Shown piece after piece: positions 2,636 through 33,079 of a DNA stretch of 33,087 nt (positions are counted from its first letter, which is position 1; each line of letters begins with the position of its first letter). Origin of the DNA: a virus. The stretch spans positions 1-33,087 of IMG/VR virus record IMGVR_UViG_3300017735_000050. One strand, written 5' to 3'. The position numbers and the translations under genes are program-made. Below the pieces are notes generated by a model. That model saw only the letters and a list, made by a program, of their open reading frames with translations. It was not told the origin of the DNA and searched no databases.

Positions 2636-3805
2636 TTAGGATACATCTATTAGATATATAGGACCTTGACCAACAGAGTTAGGGGCAGATGTTGGGGTGC
2701 TCCAAGTAACACCAAAATCATCTGAAAAAATATAATCTGGGGATGAACTTCCTTCATCTGACCAAAACATTGTTTCTCCACTATTTGAGATTCTAACATT
2801 TGCTGCACTTCCTTGCAGAGTTTGGGTGTTTTGAGGTAATGAAGAAGCATAGTTATCACCATATGACATTTGTGATGAAAATGGTCTTACTATCATGTAA
2901 TACTGGCCAGTTTCATTCATAACTGTACCCACGGATCCTTTCATTCCTAAATTTGTTAATCCACTATAATTTTTAGAGGAGAAATTTTCTCCATAATCTG
3001 AAGAATACCAACTATTAGTTGGACTTTGTCCATCTATAAAAATAATATATTGACCATTACCGGATATAAGTATATTCCATTTTTTACCTGAATTAGCTCC
3101 AAAAGAAGTAACATTAGTCCAAGTAGACCCATAATCTGTACTGTAATATCCATAGTTAACATAAGAAGAACCATTATAACCCCTAAAGGATAAAGCTATA
3201 AACTTACCACCAGAAGATATAGCCATGTTGTATAAATCTCTTACTCCCACAATTCCAGAAAATGTTATTTTACTAAAATTATCCCCATAATCTGTAGATA
3301 ACATCCAATTGTTATTACTTGTAGGTGGGGATTGGAGTGGTTCTAATAAACTTAATATAACTTGACCAGATTTTGAGGCAAATGTATTATTAAAATCAGA
3401 TGCAAAAGTTCCACTGGAGGGGTTGGAAAAAGTTTGACCTCCATCATTGGATATTTTTATATCTTGATAGTTAAAAGATTCACCTACTGCAACCATATAT
3501 GTTAAATTATCACTAACACCTCCTAAATTATAATTACTACTTGGCAACGTAGCAAAAGGGTTTGGGGGAGTTACAGTATTAAAAGATGTATCGTAAAGAG
3601 TTATAACACCTGAATTATTTGTGGCTATAAACCTAGCTGTACCATCAATTGGTGTATAGGGATCATCTGGACCACTACTAATAGGCCATACCAAAGTTGA
3701 ACCTTGGTATATTTTAAGTACATTAGAACTACCAAGCTTTATTTTCCCTTCAGCTGGTGTTATATGTGTTCCTGAAGTGGGACTATATATTTTAAAATCT
3801 GCCAT
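2636..3805 (-). CDS. Asp-box (BNR/sialidase-like repeat) fibre-tip or receptor-binding protein
   Basis: A 389-aa protein with at least five Asp-box motifs, S-x-D-x-G-x-x-[FW]: residues 119-126, 170-177, 222-229, 268-275 and 361-368, plus a worn copy near 313. These sit at about 50-residue spacing, as in six- or seven-bladed beta-propellers of sialidases and BNR proteins. The first 45 residues look like a separate attachment segment before a proline/aspartate-rich linker. No sialidase catalytic Arg triad or FRIP motif is evident, so binding is more likely than hydrolysis. It is the last gene of the tail block, its ATG overlapping the stop of the 1552-aa fibre (TAATG). By position and fold it is a good receptor-binding candidate; function is inferred. 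Confidence 0.65.
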   Translation of the reverse strand: MADFKIYSPTSGTHITPAEGKIKLGSSNVLKIYQGSTLVWPISSGPDDPYTPIDGTARFIATNNSGVITLYDTSFNTVTPPNPFATLPSSNYNLGGVSDNLTYMVAVGESFNYQDIKISNDGGQTFSNPSSGTFASDFNNTFASKSGQVILSLLEPLQSPPTSNNNWMLSTDYGDNFSKITFSGIVGVRDLYNMAISSGGKFIALSFRGYNGSSYVNYGYYSTDYGSTWTNVTSFGANSGKKWNILISGNGQYIIFIDGQSPTNSWYSSDYGENFSSKNYSGLTNLGMKGSVGTVMNETGQYYMIVRPFSSQMSYGDNYASSLPQNTQTLQGSAANVRISNSGETMFWSDEGSSSPDYIFSDDFGVTWSTPTSAPNSVGQGPIYLIDVS

Positions 3806-6800
3806 TATACTATAACATATAAAACATTGGATGATGGAGTTAGACCATCATAGGTTGTTTGATTTAAGGTAACAATTTCTGTTACTTGTGTTGATATAGG
3901 TGATACTGCACTACTACTAACAAAACCGTCTCCTTCAAATGATCCACTAAACACAGAAGCAGAAACTGTACCTTCTACATCTAGGTTGTTCATGAAGGTA
4001 TAACAAGATTTATCAGCTGTTAGGTTTGCACCTATTACAAATGTACAAGTATGATCTAAAATACAGTTAGATATTCCTCCTATAATAGCACTATGTGGTG
4101 AAGATCCAGATATTACGTTATCCTGTCCACCACCAATAAAAGTACAACCTACATCTGATCCTGATATTTGATTTGTATATCCTCCTATAATACTATTAAA
4201 TCCTCCCCCATCACCAAGGGTTGTGTGGATTTTGTTAAACCTTCCTCCCCCTATAAATTGCCCATATATTGGCTCATCATCCGTACCATTAGCGGGGGAT
4301 TCAATTAAGTTATTTAAACCTCCGATCATTGCACTATAGGAAGTACCTAGTTGCCCATTTGTAGGTTTTATACAGTTATAATATCCTCCAACTATTGTAC
4401 CTGTAGAACTAGCATGTAATTGATTATTAGACCCTCCAACAACAACATTATAAGATCCTGAAATGCTGCTGTTATGGGCACTATAGAAACCATTAAAAAT
4501 AGAGTTAGCGCATTGGGTATTATTATTACCTCCTATAGAAAAAATCTCTGACCCATTATTTGTGATACCTGATCCTATTATTATACCTGAACTACCTGAT
4601 ATAGTTTCTTCTACTCTAATTTCTACAGAAGAAGATATATATGATGTACCATCATACCAATCACTATCTCCCCCACCTCCACCTCCAGAGTTATCTATCC
4701 AATTTAAACCAGTACCTGTTGAAGATAATATTTGACCTGGATCTCCAGTCTTACCGGTTGAATCTGCTAAACTACATTCAATATTTAAATTATTAACAAA
4801 TGTTGTATTTGGAGCATTAGTTACAAGATCTGAACCTATAATAAATGATTTACAATGGTCTACAGTATTTTGATCTCCACCTAAGATACCACTGTAATCT
4901 GCGCCAGAACAAATTTCATTATTACTACCCGCACCAATAAATCCATAATCCGCTGATGCTGAATTTCTACTACCTCCACCTACTACAGATACAATACTTC
5001 CACTAGTTGCATTAAATTGACCACCTCCAATAAAATTACAATTACCTGCTATAGTATTAAGACATCCACCTGCTATTGTACCACCACTTCCAGTTGCAGT
5101 ATTACGTAGTCCTCCAACTATTACATTATAACTACCAGATATACAGTTTCTAGATCCTGCTCCAATAAGGTTATGTTGGCCTGAGTCTCCTGCTATAATA
5201 CTATTTCTATTACCTCCAACTATAACAGACCTTAAACCTGACCCAGTATTGAAAGTACCAGTTAAAATAGCACCATAGCTTGAATCAATTATATGGTTAC
5301 ATTGACCATTTCCAATAAAAGCAAATTGTGATCCTGTTATATGGTTGCTTGCTCCATTTACTATAGAAGAATAAATAGCATCATTATTACCACTACCAGA
5401 AATTTTATTGTTACCCCCAGTTAAAATACTACTAAAACGAGAAGAAATAAAATTATTATCACCTGCTCCAATAAAGTTATTACATGCATCATAACCACTT
5501 GCGGATATTATATTTGACCCCCCTGTTATAATTGCAGATTTACTACTAGTAAATATTATGTTGTTAGCCCCTGCTCCTATAAAGGAAAAATTTATAGTGT
5601 TACAACAAATTGCATTTGAGAGACCACCAGCAATAACACTACATTTTGCTTCTATACAGTTATTTATACCACCAACAATAGAAGAGTTAGCACTTGATAT
5701 AGTATTTGTTTGACCCCCACCAATAAAAGTACATGGACCCGTTAATGTATTATTTGACCCTCCTACTAATACGGCATGTGTTTCCTGAGATTTATTTGAG
5801 ATACCCCCTACTACAATCCCATAATTTTTGGTAGTGCAATTACAACTTCCACCCCCTATAAAACTACAAGCTCCTGATGCTGTGTTTAATATACCACCTA
5901 CTACAGTAGAAAAATCGTTATTAACTAGATTTTTACAACCTCCCAATATAGAGGTATGATTAGCAGTTGTACAATTGCAACTTCCCCCACCTATTGTTGA
6001 TCCCAGTCTACCAGATGTATGTGCTATTATATTTAATCTTCCTCCACCAATAAAAGAAGTACAACTATTACCTGATATGTAATTTGTCATTCCTCCTACA
6101 ATTGTACCATGTCCACTTCCTTGAATACAATGTCCACAACCTCCACCTATAAAACTACAGCAACTTGTTATGTTATTGCATACACCACCTACTATGGAAG
6201 AATCCTCAGTACTACTAATGCTATGAGTACGACCAGCTCCAATAAAAGAATCATTACTACTATCAATTTCATTACATCTACCTGCAATTATAGTTGAATA
6301 CGTTGAATTTGATACTATATTTAAACACCCACCACCTATAAAACTATAATCTCCTGATGCTGTATTTTTGGATCCTCCTACAATTGATGAGTATGATGAT
6401 GGTATTTTGTTCCCTAAACCACCACCTAAAAATTGATAACAATCACCTGATGTACCCCCAATGCAGTTATTTTTACCACCACCTAAAAATGCTAAGGCGT
6501 TTAATCCTGTTATACAGTTTCCTTCCCCTCCTACTAAAACATTTCTACTATTTCCAGAGTTAAGAGAGTTATTCAACCCCCCTCCAAGAAACGAATTACC
6601 TGGGTCTGCAAGAGTATTATTATTTCCTCCACCTATTACTGAATGACCACCAGTTAGAGAATTACTCCAACCACCTCCTATAAAACTATAAGTACCTGAG
6701 CCCGTGTTTAGAGTACCTCCTACTATACTTGCATAACTAGCACAAACTTCATTTGAACCTCCTGCTCCTATAAAAGAATTATTTGAACCAGAAATTTTAT

Positions 6801-8463
6801 TTTCACAACCCGTACCTATAAAATTGTAATTTTCGGTGTTAGAACCAGTTATTATATTATTACATCCACTTCCTATCACACTATTTTTAGTAGTAACTTT
6901 ATTAGCTCTACCCGCTAAAATTACAGAGCAACCTCCTCCTGCAAGAGTTTCAACACAGTTATTGAATCCAGTTATAATAGCGTTATCATCACCATCAGTT
7001 ATTTTATTAGCGGCACCACTCCCTATGACTGAACCATCAGCATCTGTTATACAATTTCCACTACCATTACCAATAAAATTATAAGATTTACTAGATCCTG
7101 CTATGCAGTTAAGACTACCTCCAGTAATTACACCGTATCCTCCTAGTCCAGATATATTTATAGTATTTGCAGTACCCCCTCCAATAAAACTATTACAAGC
7201 TTGAATATCATTTCTACATCCACCTACAACAACATTACAACCAACACCCGCTGCATTATTATTTAATCCACCTCCTACAAAACTATAATTTCCAGAGGCT
7301 GTGTTTAATACACCACCTCCTACAAAACTATAAGTTCCAGAGGCTACTTGACAAACCCCACCAACAACAATAGCATAATTCGCAGAGCTTGTATTTAAAA
7401 AACCACCTCCAATAAAGGTATTAGTATTGGATGTAAGGTTTCTAAGACCACCTACTATAATTGAACGGTTACATTCTATACAATTGCTTTCTCCACCTCC
7501 TATAAAAGAAAGACACCCACTAACAATATTAGTTTGTCCACCAACTATTACACTTTTACACCCATCAACAGTATTATTAGTTCCAGATCCTATAAAACCA
7601 AAACAATTGGTTACACAATTGGAAATACCATTTCCTATAAAGCCATTACAAACATTAATTATTTTATTACCATTTCCGGATCCTATAAAACTACATCCTG
7701 ATCCAGTTATATGATTACCTGTTCCATTTAATATAGAAGAATATTGTGAACCATCGCATCCACTACCTGATATTTTATTAGCGTTTCCAGATCCTAAAAA
7801 ACCAAATTGTGCTGAAATAAGACTTGTTTGTGTTGTTCCTATAAAATTATTACAAGCATTATAACTACTTGCAGATATTGTACTTGTAGCTCCACCTATT
7901 ATTGATGATTTAGAACCATTGATAATACTATTACTATTACCTCCTATAATACTGCTAAATGCCTTAGCTCCACACCCAGCGGATGAAGTTATTTTTAAGG
8001 ACTGCCCAGCACCTATAAAAGAACAATTTGCTGATGCTGTACTATTAATACCTCCTCCAATAAAAGTATAACCAATTGAAGCATCTATTTTATTATTATT
8101 ACCAGAAGCTATAACGGAATTAGTACCTTGATTATCAAAAGTACCAAATTTAGCAGGAATAATATTAGAATCACTTGAACCAGTTCTATAAACTTCATTA
8201 TCATTATCCTGGATACTACTTGTTTCCATTTTAAATACTCGACCTGTAGTATCATCATATGAAAGAACATAATTTCTTATTTGGTTATTAATACTATTAG
8301 GTTCAAAAGCTACTGAACCTGTTACATTAAAAGAACCAGATACTGAAATATCATAAGCTTGTTGGTCAGTTGAAGAAAAAGCTTCTACTGATTGAGAAAC
8401 ATGCCATGATTCTATTACTTTTCCTTGTTCTATATCATTTATGTATTTTAACTTATTTGCCAT
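3805..8463 (-). CDS. Giant Cys-rich beta-roll tail fibre (YadA-head-like repeats)
   Basis: A 1552-aa fibre. Residues 1-110 form a non-repetitive N-terminal part (ESWHVSQSVEAF, SGSFNVTGSV) suited to attachment. From about 114 to 1205 there are about 68 copies of a 15-residue unit, S-[FIS]-[IV]-[GV]-G-G-x-x-N-x-[IA]-x-G-x-x. This resembles the left-handed parallel beta-roll of YadA and Hep_Hag proteins, with an Asn in place of the usual small residue. A cap (IIGSDLVTN...TFVNNLNIEC), a linker with six glycines, about nine more repeats (1288-1480), a second cap (VIGANL...TFMNNLDVEG) and a C-terminus ending LYVIV follow. I count about 59 cysteines, against 5 in the neighbouring 3141-aa protein. 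It is probably a homotrimer at the phage surface. It is preceded by an ATATTTATAA motif and coupled to the BNR gene. Confidence 0.8.
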   Translation of the reverse strand: MANKLKYINDIEQGKVIESWHVSQSVEAFSSTDQQAYDISVSGSFNVTGSVAFEPNSINNQIRNYVLSYDDTTGRVFKMETSSIQDNDNEVYRTGSSDSNIIPAKFGTFDNQGTNSVIASGNNNKIDASIGYTFIGGGINSTASANCSFIGAGQSLKITSSAGCGAKAFSSIIGGNSNSIINGSKSSIIGGATSTISASSYNACNNFIGTTQTSLISAQFGFLGSGNANKISGSGCDGSQYSSILNGTGNHITGSGCSFIGSGNGNKIINVCNGFIGNGISNCVTNCFGFIGSGTNNTVDGCKSVIVGGQTNIVSGCLSFIGGGESNCIECNRSIIVGGLRNLTSNTNTFIGGGFLNTSSANYAIVVGGVCQVASGTYSFVGGGVLNTASGNYSFVGGGLNNNAAGVGCNVVVGGCRNDIQACNSFIGGGTANTINISGLGGYGVITGGSLNCIAGSSKSYNFIGNGSGNCITDADGSVIGSGAANKITDGDDNAIITGFNNCVETLAGGGCSVILAGRANKVTTKNSVIGSGCNNIITGSNTENYNFIGTGCENKISGSNNSFIGAGGSNEVCASYASIVGGTLNTGSGTYSFIGGGWSNSLTGGHSVIGGGNNNTLADPGNSFLGGGLNNSLNSGNSRNVLVGGEGNCITGLNALAFLGGGKNNCIGGTSGDCYQFLGGGLGNKIPSSYSSIVGGSKNTASGDYSFIGGGCLNIVSNSTYSTIIAGRCNEIDSSNDSFIGAGRTHSISSTEDSSIVGGVCNNITSCCSFIGGGCGHCIQGSGHGTIVGGMTNYISGNSCTSFIGGGRLNIIAHTSGRLGSTIGGGSCNCTTANHTSILGGCKNLVNNDFSTVVGGILNTASGACSFIGGGSCNCTTKNYGIVVGGISNKSQETHAVLVGGSNNTLTGPCTFIGGGQTNTISSANSSIVGGINNCIEAKCSVIAGGLSNAICCNTINFSFIGAGANNIIFTSSKSAIITGGSNIISASGYDACNNFIGAGDNNFISSRFSSILTGGNNKISGSGNNDAIYSSIVNGASNHITGSQFAFIGNGQCNHIIDSSYGAILTGTFNTGSGLRSVIVGGNRNSIIAGDSGQHNLIGAGSRNCISGSYNVIVGGLRNTATGSGGTIAGGCLNTIAGNCNFIGGGQFNATSGSIVSVVGGGSRNSASADYGFIGAGSNNEICSGADYSGILGGDQNTVDHCKSFIIGSDLVTNAPNTTFVNNLNIECSLADSTGKTGDPGQILSSTGTGLNWIDNSGGGGGGDSDWYDGTSYISSSVEIRVEETISGSSGIIIGSGITNNGSEIFSIGGNNNTQCANSIFNGFYSAHNSSISGSYNVVVGGSNNQLHASSTGTIVGGYYNCIKPTNGQLGTSYSAMIGGLNNLIESPANGTDDEPIYGQFIGGGRFNKIHTTLGDGGGFNSIIGGYTNQISGSDVGCTFIGGGQDNVISGSSPHSAIIGGISNCILDHTCTFVIGANLTADKSCYTFMNNLDVEGTVSASVFSGSFEGDGFVSSSAVSPISTQVTEIVTLNQTTYDGLTPSSNVLYVIV
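3990..4600 (-). repeat. Second beta-roll repeat array (about nine units) with terminal cap
   Basis: Codes for residues about 1288-1490 of the fibre. Units follow the same GG-x-x-N-x-I pattern but with longer insertions between turns (for example after GGLNNLIE). The array ends in the second cap, VIGANL...TFMNNLDVEG. A linker with a run of six glycines separates it from the larger array. Confidence 0.75.
5287..5508 (-). repeat. Copy B of a 74-residue internal duplication
   Basis: Residues 986-1059 of the fibre (from ISASGYDACNN to NHII). Aligned without any gap to residues 196-269 it has 42 of 74 identical residues, well above what neighbouring repeat units share. Both copies also follow a similar [SA]-[SI]-I-[IT]-G-G stretch, so the true duplicated block may be longer. 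Confidence 0.75.
7657..7878 (-). repeat. Copy A of a 74-residue internal duplication
   Basis: Residues 196-269 of the fibre (from ISASSYNACNN to NKII). It pairs with residues 986-1059 at 42/74 identity with equal length, showing that the array grew partly by copying blocks of about five repeats, not only single units. Confidence 0.75.
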
Positions 8464-8491: not shown

Positions 8492-9553
8492 CTATCTATC
8501 TATATTTACTAAAATTGTAGTATCTGTTGTTGGAGATGATTGTAAAGGTTGAGCTAATTTACCTACAGCTAGTAATTGATAATTACTGTCATATAAACCT
8601 ACAGTTGTAATATAAGGTTCGAAATATGAACTTGTTACAAACCCTAATGGAACACCAATAGAAGCTGTATTTTTAAAATTAAGGTTACTTCCTGAGAATA
8701 CTGTTGGTATTGTGCTTCCTGTTATTGCACTTGGGTTTAATGTATAATTAAATTCATTTTCATCTATAGTACATTGGTATTGTGTTTCAAATAATTTATA
8801 TGAACTTGAAAAAGACATTGTAACATTAGATCCAGAAAGAAAGGATTCAATAAAATCAATTCTAGATATTCTTGTTATTCCATATTCCTCTGTTCCATAA
8901 ACTGCTGTGCCATATAAAGCTTCACCTGCATTTCCTTCTGTTCTCGAGTTAAATAAAGTTATTATACCATGTTGGTATATAATATTACCATTCATATATT
9001 CATATGGAGAAGATGGGGTATTAGGGTGTAACCATAATAATCTACCATTACCATCATCTTTAATAGAACCACTTGGTCCTTCTAGAAAGAAAGAATTTGG
9101 TTGAATATAGTCTCCAAATAATTTAGATGGAATTGATATTACACCAATTGAAGATGTTGGGAATGCTTTATTTGGCCAAAGAGTGGTTTGTTCGTAGTTA
9201 TAAAAATTTGTTTGATGAACTCCACCTATTAAAGTGTTTCCTGCTTCATTTGCACCTAAGAGAACACTAGATGTTATAGCGTCACTTGTAAATCCTGCAC
9301 TACCCGAAAGATAATTTGTATAATATAATTGTTTTATAGAATCATATACTAATACTGTTGGTAATTGTTGGTCTGGGATTGTTCCTGTGAGTTGACTGCC
9401 AGATATTAGATAATCTCCTTTACTTCCTGTAAATCTATTAATACCAACATCAGATCCAGTTAGGATATCTCCACCTTTAAAATAAAATCCCTTATTTACC
9501 TCAAGTGGTGATACTATTAAATCCTGTGCATTGAATTGTTTGTAAGCGCTCAT
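8492..9553 (-). CDS. Virion structural protein, paralogue of the preceding gene
   Basis: A 353-aa putative tail or fibre component. It opens with SAYKQFNAQDLIVSP, a motif also seen at the N-termini of the 358-, 385- and 3141-aa proteins. From about residue 266 it shares a domain with the 358-aa protein: NEFNYTLNPS, then TTVGLYDSNYQLLAVGKL and a hydrophobic final strand (TILVNID). The centre (about 20-260) is Gly/Ser-rich and differs between the two. I see no enzymatic motif. The common ends and variable middle suggest that both proteins dock at one place and display different surfaces. It lies 5 nt after the paralogue and before the giant fibre. The exact role is not known. Confidence 0.65.
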   Translation of the reverse strand: MSAYKQFNAQDLIVSPLEVNKGFYFKGGDILTGSDVGINRFTGSKGDYLISGSQLTGTIPDQQLPTVLVYDSIKQLYYTNYLSGSAGFTSDAITSSVLLGANEAGNTLIGGVHQTNFYNYEQTTLWPNKAFPTSSIGVISIPSKLFGDYIQPNSFFLEGPSGSIKDDGNGRLLWLHPNTPSSPYEYMNGNIIYQHGIITLFNSRTEGNAGEALYGTAVYGTEEYGITRISRIDFIESFLSGSNVTMSFSSSYKLFETQYQCTIDENEFNYTLNPSAITGSTIPTVFSGSNLNFKNTASIGVPLGFVTSSYFEPYITTVGLYDSNYQLLAVGKLAQPLQSSPTTDTTILVNIDR

Positions 9554-9558
9554 TCATT

Positions 9559-10635
9559 TTAGAAATCTAGTTTCACTCGTATTAGAGCTTCTTTTGTAAA
9601 ATCTTTTTGTATTGGTCTAGATAGTTTAGCTACTGCTAGTAAATCATTTGAATTATTATACATTCCTACTGTTGTTGGGAATGTTTGTGGGTTATTAATA
9701 AAATAAGGATAAATTACTTCACCAGTTGAACCCGATATAAATGATGGATTTTCTGTATAATTAAATTCATTATTTCTAGCTCTAATAAATACATAATCTG
9801 ATGATATTGTTTCTTGAGAATTTAATTCAAAAATATTATCAACCCCAGACAAACCTACTGATCCAGATATATGGTTATATAATCTTTCAGGATTATTTCC
9901 AAAGTCATCTGCCGTGGTATCTGTTGCTAAATCAATCCCTCCTCCAGTTTGTGTATTATCATCTAATGCAGCGGCATTTAGTAATATTGTTGAAATATCG
10001 GGACAAAACCAACCATAAGAACCACTAGTTTCAGTATATCCATTACCCCCAGTTGATGCATTCCATGCAACACCATTAGAACCACTTATTAATTGGTAAA
10101 CTCTTTGGGTACCATAATAAGTTGGTAAAGGTACCATACCAGAATTGTCCGTTAAATGAAGAGCGGGGTTGTTTACAACAACATCATTACTGCTTGATAA
10201 AACTAAATTTAAAGTACCTGGTAGGAGTGATTGTTTGTATCTTGCTCTTTCTATACTAATTACGTAAAAATCATTATCAACACTACCTGTAAAAGAATCA
10301 CCCCATACAAAAGATGAATTTTCATCTTCTAAAATTAATGTTCTATATTGACCATATATTGTTGTTGTTGGGGATACAAAAGATACAGATGAGTCAAAAT
10401 TAACTCCCCCACCACCATTTTTATTGGCATAAGCAATTTGAAATTGAACAGCTGCTGTATCATCATCCGAAGATGTTTGGTAAATATTTAGGTAATAAGG
10501 ACCTGAAGATCCTTCGGTTTGAGTTGAGGATGTAAAATAAGTATTTAATACCGGGGAGTTATTACTCCAAACAGTTGAAGTAACTGAATCCGAACTTACT
10601 ACAAAATCTTCTGGATCTAATTGTTTAAAAGCCAT
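9559..10635 (-). CDS. Virion structural protein with shared N- and C-terminal motifs
   Basis: A 358-aa protein. The N-terminus MAFKQLDPEDFVVSS matches the KQ[FL]xxxD pattern of its downstream neighbour, and the C-terminal 74 residues carry the same domain: NEFNYTENPS (from about 285), TTVGMYNNSNDLLAVAKL and a last strand ending VKLDF. The middle is Thr/Ser/Gly-rich with many short beta-type stretches and no catalytic motif. Its stop is 5 nt from the next ATG, and it follows the 223-aa gene by 4 nt, so the three are one translational group. A tail-fibre connector or baseplate decoration is plausible. The assignment rests on position and paralogy only. Confidence 0.65.
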   Translation of the reverse strand: MAFKQLDPEDFVVSSDSVTSTVWSNNSPVLNTYFTSSTQTEGSSGPYYLNIYQTSSDDDTAAVQFQIAYANKNGGGGVNFDSSVSFVSPTTTIYGQYRTLILEDENSSFVWGDSFTGSVDNDFYVISIERARYKQSLLPGTLNLVLSSSNDVVVNNPALHLTDNSGMVPLPTYYGTQRVYQLISGSNGVAWNASTGGNGYTETSGSYGWFCPDISTILLNAAALDDNTQTGGGIDLATDTTADDFGNNPERLYNHISGSVGLSGVDNIFELNSQETISSDYVFIRARNNEFNYTENPSFISGSTGEVIYPYFINNPQTFPTTVGMYNNSNDLLAVAKLSRPIQKDFTKEALIRVKLDF

Positions 10636-22535: not shown

Positions 22536-24425
22536 TTAATAACCGGTGGATGATCCTCCTCCACTAGTGCTAAATGTTCCTGTTCCTAACGAAACTACTC
22601 TACCTTTAATATCTGTATTTGGGTATTTTACTTCGAATATACTTGGGTCTAAAGATGGATAAATAATACCACTTTGAGTAGCTCCCTTTATATCATAAGC
22701 AAATTGTGAATATCCACTATTTGTACCCGCTTTATTTGTAATACTTACATTTTGCACAGTTTGAACACCAGGTATATTATCTAATAATATTGTTATCTCT
22801 CTTAATATAATAGGTTGGTTAATCTGCCACTTACTAACCTCAAAATATGTTTGTAATGCTGTTATACATCTAGTTAGTACTTCACTATTGTTAAAATTAG
22901 GTAATGTAATTATTTCAAAATCTACACAAATATTAATAATAAAGGCATCTTTAACATTAACAGTATCACCTATCATTCTTGATTGGTTTAAATATGTAAT
23001 TAAATTACTTTTAATAGTATTAGATGTTGTTACCAAATTACCATTTGTATTATAAGCTAACACATATAAATCTAAAATGGTGTCCGGGTCTTTTGTGCTT
23101 GGTTTTGTTGTATATGCCTTAGATAGATCACCAAACTTAGGAGGCATACTTAAAGCTCTAATTAAATAATCATCAGCCGTAACGTTTCTTTGTTGTGTAT
23201 TAAAATTAGATAATGAATTTTGTCTTATTTCTTCTATAGTGTCTCCATCCCCACCACCACTTGCGGCTATAGGATTATTTACAGCTAAAGAATTAAATAT
23301 AAATTGTGCTATAGATGTATTACTTAAATTTGAATTTTTAAATAAAGTATTACTAGTATTTAATTGGGTTACTTGGTTAGCATTAACATTATCTCTAGTT
23401 CCTCCACCTGTTATATATCTAACGGTTAAAGTAGTATTACTTGGAGCTGTTCCATAAGTATTTGTAAAAACAAAATTTGTTGGTGAGTAAGCAGCCGTTA
23501 ACTTGCTTTGACCAAATGGTAATCCAATTCCTACATTATCAGGATTAGGAACTATTTGTTCATCAATTTGTAATGCATTTCCTGCACCGAATTGGATTTG
23601 TAATGTTGTTTCATTTAAATATCTAGTAACAAATCTATTATTTGTTGATTTTGTTCTTAAAACATAAGGTGCATCTCCATCTTGATATGTATTAGGATCA
23701 TTAGTATTTGTATTTTTAATACTATCATACACTAAATCTTGACCTAAATAATCTACTTCATAATATTGATTACCATCGGAATCAAATATATCAAGGATAC
23801 CACCTATATTATTAGAATTAATTTCTAAAGTTGGGAATTGTTGATAAGCACCTAAAGTAAAATCTTGTGTTACAATAGTACCAGATGATGCTTTTCTTGT
23901 TTTCTTTAATAAGTAATAAGTAGGTTCTCCACCTGCTACTTGGGCTATTGATATTTCAGTAGGGTCACTTGAAGATGAAATTGAAAAATCTATTATATCT
24001 TCTATTATAAAACTAGTACCCGTTTGAGTATTTGAAATTGTATTTGCACCTATTATTAAAGCATAATTAAAATCAGGTACTACAGTTACCCCTTCTACTT
24101 TAGATGGAACCTGTTGGTAAAAATCTAAATCTACAGTTGCTAAACCCGTTGCCTTTGGTTTATAACTAAACATATAGGCAAGATCATATAAATTATCAAA
24201 TTGTCTTGCATATTGTAGATAAGTTTCTTGAATTTGATTATCTAAATAAAATGATAAAACATCACTTACATATGCTGATTGTTCTATAAACATCATACCA
24301 GGGGATGATGGGCTAAAATCTGTATAAGTATTAGGAAAATATGTTTGTGAGAAATTAATAAGTTGAGCTCTAATATCATTAAAGTCCTTATTAATATATG
24401 TTATATCTTTATTTAACAATGCCAT
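22536..24425 (-). CDS. Baseplate wedge protein, T4 gp6/P2 gpJ-like
   Basis: A 629-aa wedge subunit. In the T4 and P2 families this protein forms the ring that holds wedges together around the central hub. The N-terminal TYTDFSPSSPGMMFIEQSAY (34-52) and VSDVLSFYLDNQ (53-64) match the gp6 pattern of a D-F-x-P-x-S-x-G turn followed by a helix ending in FYLD. The Baseplate_J core near 415-440 (TADDYLIRALSMPPKFGDLS) is typical. Its length is close to that of T4 gp6 (660 aa). The ATG overlaps the stop of the gp25-like gene (TAATG), the same order as W-J in P2 and 25-6 in many T4 relatives. The C-terminus is Gly/Ser-rich. Confidence 0.92.
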   Translation of the reverse strand: MALLNKDITYINKDFNDIRAQLINFSQTYFPNTYTDFSPSSPGMMFIEQSAYVSDVLSFYLDNQIQETYLQYARQFDNLYDLAYMFSYKPKATGLATVDLDFYQQVPSKVEGVTVVPDFNYALIIGANTISNTQTGTSFIIEDIIDFSISSSSDPTEISIAQVAGGEPTYYLLKKTRKASSGTIVTQDFTLGAYQQFPTLEINSNNIGGILDIFDSDGNQYYEVDYLGQDLVYDSIKNTNTNDPNTYQDGDAPYVLRTKSTNNRFVTRYLNETTLQIQFGAGNALQIDEQIVPNPDNVGIGLPFGQSKLTAAYSPTNFVFTNTYGTAPSNTTLTVRYITGGGTRDNVNANQVTQLNTSNTLFKNSNLSNTSIAQFIFNSLAVNNPIAASGGGDGDTIEEIRQNSLSNFNTQQRNVTADDYLIRALSMPPKFGDLSKAYTTKPSTKDPDTILDLYVLAYNTNGNLVTTSNTIKSNLITYLNQSRMIGDTVNVKDAFIINICVDFEIITLPNFNNSEVLTRCITALQTYFEVSKWQINQPIILREITILLDNIPGVQTVQNVSITNKAGTNSGYSQFAYDIKGATQSGIIYPSLDPSIFEVKYPNTDIKGRVVSLGTGTFSTSGGGSSTGY

Positions 24426-24832
24426 TATCGAAAGTTTAATTCTAAAGTATCATTTATACCTGTATTAGGAATATTATATACTATATTTATTTGTATTGTA
24501 TTTTCATTAACACTTCTTAAGACTTCTACCTCTTCAACTTGAATATTTGGAAAATTATCATTTAATTTAGTTTGGATATCTTCCTTTATAAAATCTAAAT
24601 TCCCAGTTTCTATTTGAGTAAATATATATCTTCTTAAACCTGCACCAAAAAGTGGGTTTTCTATTCTTTCCCCTGGGTTTGTTAAAAAATAGTTAATTAA
24701 ATTATTTTTAATTGCATCTTTAGTTTGATAATTAGGTTGGAACACCTCAGGTGCACTAAATGGTAAATTAACACCAATAGCAACTCTAGGTCGTAAATCA
24801 TTAGGATATACTCTTCTTGCTCCAAATGCCAT
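24425..24832 (-). CDS. Baseplate wedge protein, T4 gp25/P2 gpW-like
   Basis: A 135-aa member of the GPW/gp25 family, the small wedge protein that contacts the sheath initiation point. Diagnostic features are NYQTKDAIKNNLINYFLT (34-51) and NPGERIENPLFGAGLRRYIF (52-71), where the P-G-E-R, N-P-x-F-G and L-R-R elements are the family core (compare the E-P-R motif region). Length equals T4 gp25 (132 aa). Despite the lysozyme label in some databases, the T4 protein is structural. It lies immediately before gp6 with a stop/start overlap, and its start follows the 121-aa gene by 5 nt, so the three are one translational group. Confidence 0.93.
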   Translation of the reverse strand: MAFGARRVYPNDLRPRVAIGVNLPFSAPEVFQPNYQTKDAIKNNLINYFLTNPGERIENPLFGAGLRRYIFTQIETGNLDFIKEDIQTKLNDNFPNIQVEEVEVLRSVNENTIQINIVYNIPNTGINDTLELNFR

Positions 24833-31000: not shown

Positions 31001-31426
31001 TTAAATTTCTTTAACTACTTTTTTTATTTTATAAAGATGTGCACATTTTTCATATTCTTCATATTGTTCAAAAAATTGAATTGCATTACCTAATACTTTA
31101 GAAAATATTTTATTATCAAAATTTATAATAGCATTGACATCATCATGACTATCTAAACTAATATTTTTAATATAAGACCAAGCCCTATTATAAACAGTAA
31201 ACTCAGATGCCTCTTTTGTAGATTCAACATTATAATTAGGTTGTTCTTTTTTTAAGAATTTTTCTAATTTACGGTGAAATACTTCATGATTTTGGATTAA
31301 TTTGACAAACATTCCTATTTTAGCGAAAGGACCGTTCATAAAATCCCTTATTTCAGATTTAGTTTTATCATCATCAATTTCTTTTCCTTCTACAAATAAT
31401 TTAAATATTTTATCTTTGTCTATCAT
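31001..31426 (-). CDS. Hypothetical 141-aa protein
   Basis: I do not recognise a family. The sequence is charged and largely helical. A C-terminal stretch, FFEQYEEYEKCAHLYKIKKV (118-137), has the spacing of a UVR-type helix hairpin (E-x-Y-E-x-C-A-x-L-x-x-I), the element that UvrB and UvrC use to pair; this is a weak resemblance. The ATG overlaps the stop of the nuclease gene (ATGA). The start is the only one here with a perfect GGAGGT 5 nt upstream, but those bases also code the GGKR end of the nuclease, so this may be chance. Confidence 0.58.
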   Translation of the reverse strand: MIDKDKIFKLFVEGKEIDDDKTKSEIRDFMNGPFAKIGMFVKLIQNHEVFHRKLEKFLKKEQPNYNVESTKEASEFTVYNRAWSYIKNISLDSHDDVNAIINFDNKIFSKVLGNAIQFFEQYEEYEKCAHLYKIKKVVKEI

Positions 31427-31767
31427 CTTTTACCTCCAAAATAAGCTACAGCATGTCCTTCTGTAATTAATAAATCATTTAATTTAACATCTCCTAAGAA
31501 TATATCACCTAAACATCTACCATATTTCCCAACACCTTGTGAGTGTAGTACAAATTCATTATTATGTTTGGCTAGAATATCTTTAACATATTGTTTAGCA
31601 GCTAGTCCTCTTGCTTTTTCCTCAAGATCTCTAGTTCTAGATTCTGCTGCATTAATTCCAACTAACCTAATTCTTATTTTTTTCCAAGTATCAAAACCAA
31701 GATCAATGATAGCATCAATGGTATCCCCATCTACTACTCTTTCACATTTTGCTTTATAAATGTACAT
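31423..31767 (-). CDS. Staphylococcal-nuclease-like enzyme (thermonuclease fold)
   Basis: A 114-aa SNase-family protein. VVDGDTIDA (11-19) holds the Ca2+-binding aspartates (Asp13, Asp15), IRIRLVGINAAES (31-43) holds Arg34 and Glu42, and GKYGRCLGDIF (80-90) holds Arg84. These match Arg35, Glu43 and Arg87 of staphylococcal nuclease in type and spacing, so it should cut DNA or RNA. It has no signal peptide, so it acts inside the cell, or is packaged. It is shorter than the secreted enzyme. Possible roles are host DNA breakdown or processing of phage DNA. An ATATTTATAA motif lies 12 nt before the ATG. Confidence 0.87.
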   Translation of the reverse strand: MYIYKAKCERVVDGDTIDAIIDLGFDTWKKIRIRLVGINAAESRTRDLEEKARGLAAKQYVKDILAKHNNEFVLHSQGVGKYGRCLGDIFLGDVKLNDLLITEGHAVAYFGGKR

Positions 31768-31988: not shown

Positions 31989-32465
31989 TTATTTAAATTT
32001 ACTTCCTATTAAGTTAATTGTTTCTTTTGCCTCTTCCAAACTAATTTGAAAAAATTCTTTACTACTATTGACACGTTGTGCTTTTAATTTATGGTGTACT
32101 TCTCTTTCTACCATTTCCCCATTAAAACACTGGTATGCCCATTCTACTTTATAGGGTAAGGCAACACCTGTTGCTGATGATATTTGTTTAGCTCGTTCTT
32201 CAGGTAATTTTTTAGTATAACCTATTTTTAATAACCCGGGTTGGGTTGAGTTGGATAAAATATATACCCATTGATCTCCATCGCCTTTATCCGCATATAA
32301 CCCATATTTTTTATCGGTATAATACGTTACATTCTCCCATCCATCTCCTTTCGCACTGGGAGTTAGGGTAAAGTATTTAGCATGCTCTAAATCCGTATTC
32401 CCATAGTTTTCTTTTAATGGGATAAACTGTTTAGCTTTTTTAACTGTAATTTTATTTAGACTCAT
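31989..32465 (-). CDS. T5orf172-like (GIY-YIG superfamily) protein
   Basis: A 158-aa protein. Residues 66-150 fit the T5orf172/MUG113 branch of the GIY-YIG superfamily: WVYILSNSTQPGLLKIGYTK (66-85), in which V-Y-I-L is the GIY strand and K-I-G-Y the YIG strand, then ERAKQISSATG (90-100) with the usual Arg, EREVHHKL (120-127) with a likely metal-binding Glu, and SSKEFFQIS. The first 60 residues are a separate domain without known motifs. Members are predicted nucleases found in phages and mobile elements; activity is unproven for many. It overlaps the lipoprotein gene by ATGA. Confidence 0.78.
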   Translation of the reverse strand: MSLNKITVKKAKQFIPLKENYGNTDLEHAKYFTLTPSAKGDGWENVTYYTDKKYGLYADKGDGDQWVYILSNSTQPGLLKIGYTKKLPEERAKQISSATGVALPYKVEWAYQCFNGEMVEREVHHKLKAQRVNSSKEFFQISLEEAKETINLIGSKFK

Positions 32466-33079
32466 TCGAATATTATTTTAAATTCTTTTTCTATTTCTAT
32501 ATCCTTTGGAAATATAGTTTTAACAAAAACTTTAGCTGTGTCACCTACCATCTGATTATCAAAAAATATTTGTTGTTGAGGTTCATAGGTATATTTACTA
32601 TAAGTCCCTAAACTCTGAATATCAGAATTGGGGTTATATGAATAACCTGCTATATTAAGTGGTGGGTGATTATTTGCCATATCTTCAATAGTATACGTTA
32701 GATTACCAATAGGTATAGGATTTACAAATCCACCTCCAGTAAAATAACCTAATATACTATATAACGGAACTGTAAATGTAATTCCATTGATCCATATCCA
32801 ATAATCAGAATCAAATAGTGTTTCTATTAATGGTACCCCATTAACAACATAATCAGGGTGCAATTCATCTAATTGACCTTTAATTGTAAAGTAATTGTAA
32901 CCTTGATGTTCAATATGAAAATAACCATTAGCATCCTGATATACACCAGGTGATACTAAGGGATCAATTTCAAAAAATGATTCACAATCACCACTTAAAC
33001 AAGGGTAAGGTGAAATAAGCTCCTCTGGGCTACATGCCCAGAAGAAACTTATTAAGGTTATGTAAACTAACTTTTTCAT
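32462..33079 (-). CDS. Putative lipoprotein (205 aa)
   Basis: The N-terminus MKKLVYITLISFFWACSPEE is a short lipoprotein-type signal: two lysines, a hydrophobic stretch, then Cys16 as the lipid site. The lipobox FWAC is unusual at its -2 Trp. After the Cys come S-P-E-E, acidic residues at +4 and +5 that resemble Bacteroidota surface-export signals. C27 and C32 could form a disulfide. The rest is beta-rich and aromatic (Tyr, Trp, Phe), with no family I know. A phage lipoprotein displayed on the host could mask a receptor and exclude other phages, or it could act in lysis. There are only 8 nt of sequence before the ATG, so its promoter is unseen. Confidence 0.62.
   Translation of the reverse strand: MKKLVYITLISFFWACSPEELISPYPCLSGDCESFFEIDPLVSPGVYQDANGYFHIEHQGYNYFTIKGQLDELHPDYVVNGVPLIETLFDSDYWIWINGITFTVPLYSILGYFTGGGFVNPIPIGNLTYTIEDMANNHPPLNIAGYSYNPNSDIQSLGTYSKYTYEPQQQIFFDNQMVGDTAKVFVKTIFPKDIEIEKEFKIIFE

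Follow-up and report, generated by a model that had tools for sequence, protein, structure and literature searches.

A cysteine-rich YadA-like beta-roll array in a predicted phage tail fibre

Introduction

Extracellular proteins usually avoid exposed cysteines. In left-handed beta-rolls, positions 5 and 7 of the coil lie in the trimer core and the rise per coil is 4.8 Å (PMC9543794); in UspA1 most coils have 15 residues, an additional Gly standing at position 9, and S105 occupies the place of G@8 (PMC9543794). Among contractile phage tails, that of Agrobacterium phage Milano has structural proteins with 2.1% Cys (PMC10811340), and metal binding has been proposed for the HxH motifs of tail fibres (PMC11705849).

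Here we analysed a virus sequence of 33,087 bases (hereafter the window), which is the whole of an IMG/VR record and probably a genome fragment; one of its genes encodes a fibre with 59 Cys. A literature search did not find Cys-rich YadA-like phage fibres described, which does not prove their absence, and the fibre is apparently an undescribed Cys-rich variant of a known beta-roll fold.

Results

A cysteine-rich gene in the tail module of an immuto-like phage

The genes relevant to the location of the fibre are the following:

3805 to 8463, minus strand: Cys-rich YadA/UspA1-like tail-fibre gene, 1552 aa, 59 Cys
8492 to 10635, minus strand: two proteins of 353 and 358 aa, homologous to the neighbours of the annotated tail fibre of Flavobacterium phage immuto
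11361 to 20786, minus strand: 3141-aa protein with 5 Cys, residues 18-1100 related to immuto35A_161
22536 to 24832, minus strand: baseplate wedge (phrog_219, Baseplate_J-like) and gp25-like baseplate protein (phrog_261), a contractile-tail module

The exceptional Cys content claimed in the original prediction held, as did the count of only 5 Cys in the 3141-aa neighbour. Cysteine makes up 3.8% of the fibre (50 TGT and 9 TGC codons), while the other 23 larger proteins of the window have 40 Cys in 8,881 residues, an average of 0.45%; at that rate the probability of at least 59 Cys in 1552 residues is about 2e-34.

The nearest isolates are the Flavobacterium phages immuto (45% identity for the baseplate, 46% for the primase), and the Cys-rich gene occupies the slot of the immuto tail fiber protein QQO92084, downstream of the two homologous tail proteins, although the fibre itself shows no homology to QQO92084. 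With gp6- and gp25-like genes upstream, it lies within a tail/baseplate module and in the position of a tail fibre. In two related phage contigs, L001 and L002, the fibre adjoins the same GIY-YIG-like and primase genes and contains 51 and 23 Cys, respectively, the L002 fibre being incomplete. When the fibre was compared by tblastn with 50,697 phage records, no match was obtained at 1e-5 and weak ones appeared at E values up to 10, in a search whose low-complexity filter probably masks the fibre repeats; two of these weak matches fall on annotated tail-fibre proteins, neither of which is Cys-rich.

Directly downstream of the fibre, with a one-base overlap, lies a 389-aa gene (2636-3805) with BNR/Asp-box matches and no Cys, which is absent from L001 and L002, where the GIY-YIG-like gene comes after the fibre. 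Elsewhere in the window we recognised by eye a small staphylococcal-nuclease-like protein (31423-31767) and an N-terminus resembling that of a lipoprotein, in which a Cys follows the signal sequence (32462-33079). No tRNA or Rfam family was found within the 33,087 bases.

The repeats match the UspA1 head in register

Segmentation of the protein by dynamic programming divided it into the following parts:

8119 to 8463, minus strand: N-terminal non-repeat part, residues 1-115, without Cys, conserved in L001 and L002
4861 to 8118, minus strand: main beta-roll array, residues 116-1201, 67 units
4450 to 4860, minus strand: interruption, residues 1202-1338, with a GDPGQILSSTGTGLNW linker
4060 to 4449, minus strand: second short array, residues 1339-1468, 7 units
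3805 to 4059, minus strand: C-terminal end, residues 1469-1552, with a weak PF24243 Phage_tail_C match below the cut-off

Residues 1-115 are presumed to be the attachment domain, and residues 1220-1256 of the interruption weakly match annotated Synechococcus phage tail-fibre genes (tblastn). The 74 units found, spaced mostly by 15-16 residues, agree with the approximately 75 units of about 15 residues originally counted. The consensus of the main array is x-C/Y-S-F-I-G-G-G-x-x-N-x-I-x-x, and we number each unit (-2)(-1) S1 F2 I3 G4 G5 G6 x7 x8 N9 x10 I11 x12 x13. Along the main array (4861-8118), units with F2 and G4 (SFIGGG) alternate with units that have a small residue at 2 and Val or Ile at 4 (SxIVGG). 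The resulting period of two coils would be compatible with knobs-in-holes packing at trimer core sites.

The YadA-like beta-roll of the original prediction was supported by the alignment with UspA1, and the structure comparisons pointed in different directions. The array aligns without gaps over 103 residues, and in the same register, with the UspA1 head 3PR7 (E 3.9e-10), sharing its 14-15-residue coils, glycines and inward hydrophobic residues, with site conservation as expected. YadA-like heads were prominent at the top of the structure comparison of a short, 138-residue AF2 monomer model, itself of low confidence (pLDDT 60.6): the best matches were the BoaA head (Z 12.7), the Lolium ice-binding beta-roll (Z 12.5) and the BpaC head (Z 11.6), all three with an rmsd of about 7 Å, and GlmU-type helices scored lower (Z 9.8). 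A longer, 319-residue monomer model is a beta-solenoid (pLDDT 86.8) for which Foldseek returned no significant PDB match, and in a further structure comparison other beta-solenoids ranked first and YadA heads were not retrieved. The Pfam scan of the fibre found no YadA-type beta-barrel anchor family of the kind that marks trimeric autotransporter adhesins.

Since S105 stands in the place of G@8 in UspA1, counting along the 3PR7 chain places our sites 2 and 4 at the trimer-core positions; sites 2, 4 and 5 would thus correspond to the published positions 5, 7 and 8, and site -1 to position 3. Side-chain directions, taken from residue patterns and from this mapping to published structures, would put sites 8, 10 and 12 outward on the second strand and sites -2, -1, 7 and 13 at edges and turns. 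We expect the fibre to consist of three identical chains, each with about 74 coils.

Cysteine-rich arrays are widespread

A scan for the motif C-S-F-I-G-G-G-x-x-N gave at least 119 stretches, with a median array Cys content of 4.4% among the matches listed. Two further scans carried no Cys requirement, and among the matches listed their arrays covered a broad range of Cys content, from 0-1% up to 7.7-8.4%: the first gave a median of 2.6% Cys in 63 new arrays, and in the second 36 of 55 new arrays had at least 2%. Cysteine richness is therefore not unique to the fibre of the window, most of the arrays sampled without regard to Cys being Cys-rich among the matches listed. Judged by its repeat pattern, the Cys-rich design is widespread, appearing in well over a hundred environmental viruses. 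For the analyses below we pooled 170 Cys-rich environmental phage arrays (5,227 units) from the matches listed, the Cys-selected set included.

Bacteroidetes MAGs also carry Cys-rich arrays with the same site pattern. On several of their contigs (L222, L226, L229, L237, L249, L255 and others) we observed a recurring three-gene cassette. One of its genes encodes a Cys-rich array protein that has FCDP and often GQTLRS at its N-terminus and lacks an obvious signal peptide; another encodes an NHL-repeat protein that carries a T9SS sorting tail (PF18962 in L255). The product of the remaining gene is conserved, contains 'GGIGKSVxATAVC' and has no Pfam match. The cassette is flanked by genes of chromosomal type, among them ORFs that by eye resemble dnaK, ATP synthase gamma and cysD.

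Cysteines occupy variable sites and are absent from the core

The arrays hold 55 of the 59 Cys of the fibre, distributed over site -2 (11), site -1 (10), site 7 (7), site 8 (6), site 10, the middle of N-C-I (14), site 12 (3), site 13 (2) and other linker positions (2). The two preferred locations named in the original prediction are real, in that -2/-1 and N-C-I account for 35 of the 55, but they are not exclusive, the other 20 being at 7, 8, 12, 13 and in linkers; moreover, N-C-I is not favoured for Cys in two close relatives (5/49 and 2/19).

The inward and core sites of the fibre (1-6, 9 and 11) contain Cys at 0 of 592 positions, so that its array Cys are restricted to the variable sites (-2, -1, 7, 8, 10, 12 and 13) and linkers. 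The same was seen across the 170 pooled arrays, where among the matches listed Cys occupies 3,621 of 36,589 variable sites (9.9%) and 24 of 41,816 inward sites (0.06%). Because of this difference, the suggestion that the Cys simply fill the core is refuted.

Continuous cysteine ladders are not supported

The original prediction also considered that Cys stacked on successive coils could cross-link as disulfides or bind metal. Disulfide ladders, or inter-chain or inter-fibre disulfides formed after lysis, would stiffen or cross-link the fibre, and the 4.8 Å coil rise (PMC9543794) does bring same-site Cys near disulfide range; disulfide networks are, besides, present in the contractile tail of phage Milano (PMC10811340). 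In the fibre, however, there are 6 adjacent-coil same-site Cys pairs against 5.99 expected. In the pooled arrays, with array and unit type controlled, Cys neighbours at -1/-1 were avoided (30 against 62 expected, a ratio of 0.48, bootstrap over arrays 0.31-0.70, among the matches listed), and at the places where neighbouring chains should meet, no coupling between Cys at -1 and Cys at 7 or 8 was detected at any offset in the same set. Within units, the Cys pairs 7/10 and 8/10 were depleted (0.58 and 0.69, matches listed). Asn-Asn (1.68) and Tyr-Tyr (1.30) neighbours were enriched at -1 in the pooled arrays among the matches listed; therefore ladders exist at this site, though not of Cys.

Some signals go the other way. 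Same-site adjacency of Cys was weakly positive at -2 (1.4-1.6x) and at 8 (1.2-1.4x) in the pooled arrays, among the matches listed, and the fibre contains one notable run:

7513 to 7695, minus strand: five consecutive coils with Cys before the strand, at residues 257, 272, 287, 302 and 317

This run, with 3 adjacent same-site Cys pairs against 1.2 expected (P 0.10), is the best local candidate for a true Cys ladder. Many pair classes were tested and only the strong ones deserve weight. Taking both sides together, we consider disulfides of these kinds improbable.

Further enriched pairs involved His. At -1 of adjacent coils, His-Cys occurred 52 times against 24 expected (2.2x, from 38 arrays), and Cys-His (1.6x) and His-His (1.8x) were also enriched, all in pooled arrays among the matches listed; in the window, residues 896 and 911 are an adjacent-coil His/Cys pair at this site. 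Together with the -2/-2 and 8/8 adjacency, this could mean metal binding or pairing at some places. As a general explanation, metal ions bound by scattered Cys/His sites seem to us very unlikely, given that Cys-Cys is depleted at -1, that most Cys have no His neighbour, and that no convincing or consistent third ligand was found near the His-Cys pairs of the pooled arrays (matches listed).

Since the thiols are outward, not stacked beyond chance in this fibre and individually exchangeable (see below), the results argue against continuous disulfide or metal ladders, and we rejected the continuous Cys ladder.

Single cysteines are lost while the content persists

MAFFT alignments of distant arrays slip register, and we restricted the turnover counts to places where related arrays align well locally. 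There, 78% of Cys were retained, a rate shared by Tyr, Asp and Glu, and a lost Cys was replaced by Tyr, Ser, Leu, Gly, Asn, Arg, Thr or Phe. Free replacement among homologues, originally named as a sign against stacked Cys, was half borne out when the window was compared with L001: the two agree at 10 Cys columns and disagree at 11, with varied replacements, compared with 121 shared and 50 differing columns for Ser/Thr/Asn/Tyr. Any one Cys is about as readily lost as the rest of the surface residues, and the overall content persists.

These patterns bear on the main rival to an adhesive role, in which Cys would be near-neutral filler, a small residue tolerated without special function on an uncharged, Ser/Asn/Thr/Tyr-rich surface. 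Filler would be replaced as fast as the rest of the surface, and Cys is, both by residues one base change away (Y, S, G, R, F) and by others; differences in Cys content are, besides, offset mainly by Tyr, Ser and Gly. Against it, about 10% exposed Cys per site is very unusual when the other proteins of the same virus average 0.45%, and the avoidance of stacking at -1, specific to Cys, suggests that selection sees the thiol. Furthermore, some arrays with the same motif are almost Cys-free among the matches listed, so the fold does not need Cys and something keeps the content high. We therefore regard filler as possible but rather unlikely.

Two other influences on Cys content were considered. 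Arrays with high Cys had half the Asp and Glu of arrays with low Cys, but the correlation across arrays (rho -0.08) led us to drop the replacement of acidic residues by Cys, and the effect of G+C was weak (r -0.29).

Discussion

The reading we favour, at a little better than even odds (about 0.55), is that of a trimeric YadA-like tail fibre with isolated thiols scattered over its surface, where they would take part in an adhesive chemistry. The phage would be an immuto-like one of Bacteroidetes with a contractile tail, and the gene would encode its tail-fibre shaft or adhesin, every unit of 15-16 residues forming one coil of a left-handed parallel beta-roll of the YadA/UspA1 type. About 59 thiols per chain, or about 177 per trimer, would then lie on the surface, mostly kept apart, on a fibre that is probably not a disulfide-locked or metal-filled ladder. 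An adhesive role is probably the likeliest mechanism for these Cys: they may serve a surface that meets the host envelope through polar, aromatic, soft and weakly hydrophobic contacts, with transient thiol exchange as a possible addition. A more specific proposal, covering phage fibres and their Bacteroidetes relatives alike, is that free, isolated and reactive thiols, with stacking selected against, adhere by reversible thiol-disulfide exchange or thiol-metal contact; this we hold to be improbable.

Nearly one Cys per coil, placed outward and recurring in phage arrays, raises the question of whether fibres use thiol chemistry where they meet the host surface. A Cys-rich beta-roll is also a scaffold, provided by nature, on which thiols are dense and regularly spaced.

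Three known systems resemble the fibre in part. Phage Milano likewise has a contractile tail rich in Cys; its Cys are engaged in defined disulfides of the sheath, baseplate, spike and fibre (PMC10811340), whereas those of the window cluster in a single fibre, where they lie at outward sites of the repeats and give no pairing signal. The Lolium ice-binding beta-roll (PF21300, 3ULT) shares GxxNxVxG repeats through weak Pfam and structure matches, the Pfam match being below the family cut-off, but its aligned part is not Cys-rich. The third likeness is to the YadA-like heads (UspA1 3PR7, BoaA 3S6L, BpaC 7O23), which belong to autotransporter adhesins, while the fibre lies in a phage tail module and has no anchor that we could find. 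With the UspA1 head it shares 15-residue units in the same register (S-T/F-I-G-G-G-x-x-N-x-A/I), variable outward sites, and conserved glycines and inward residues; the aligned stretch of UspA1 has no Cys, whereas in the fibre about 10% of the outward sites are Cys.
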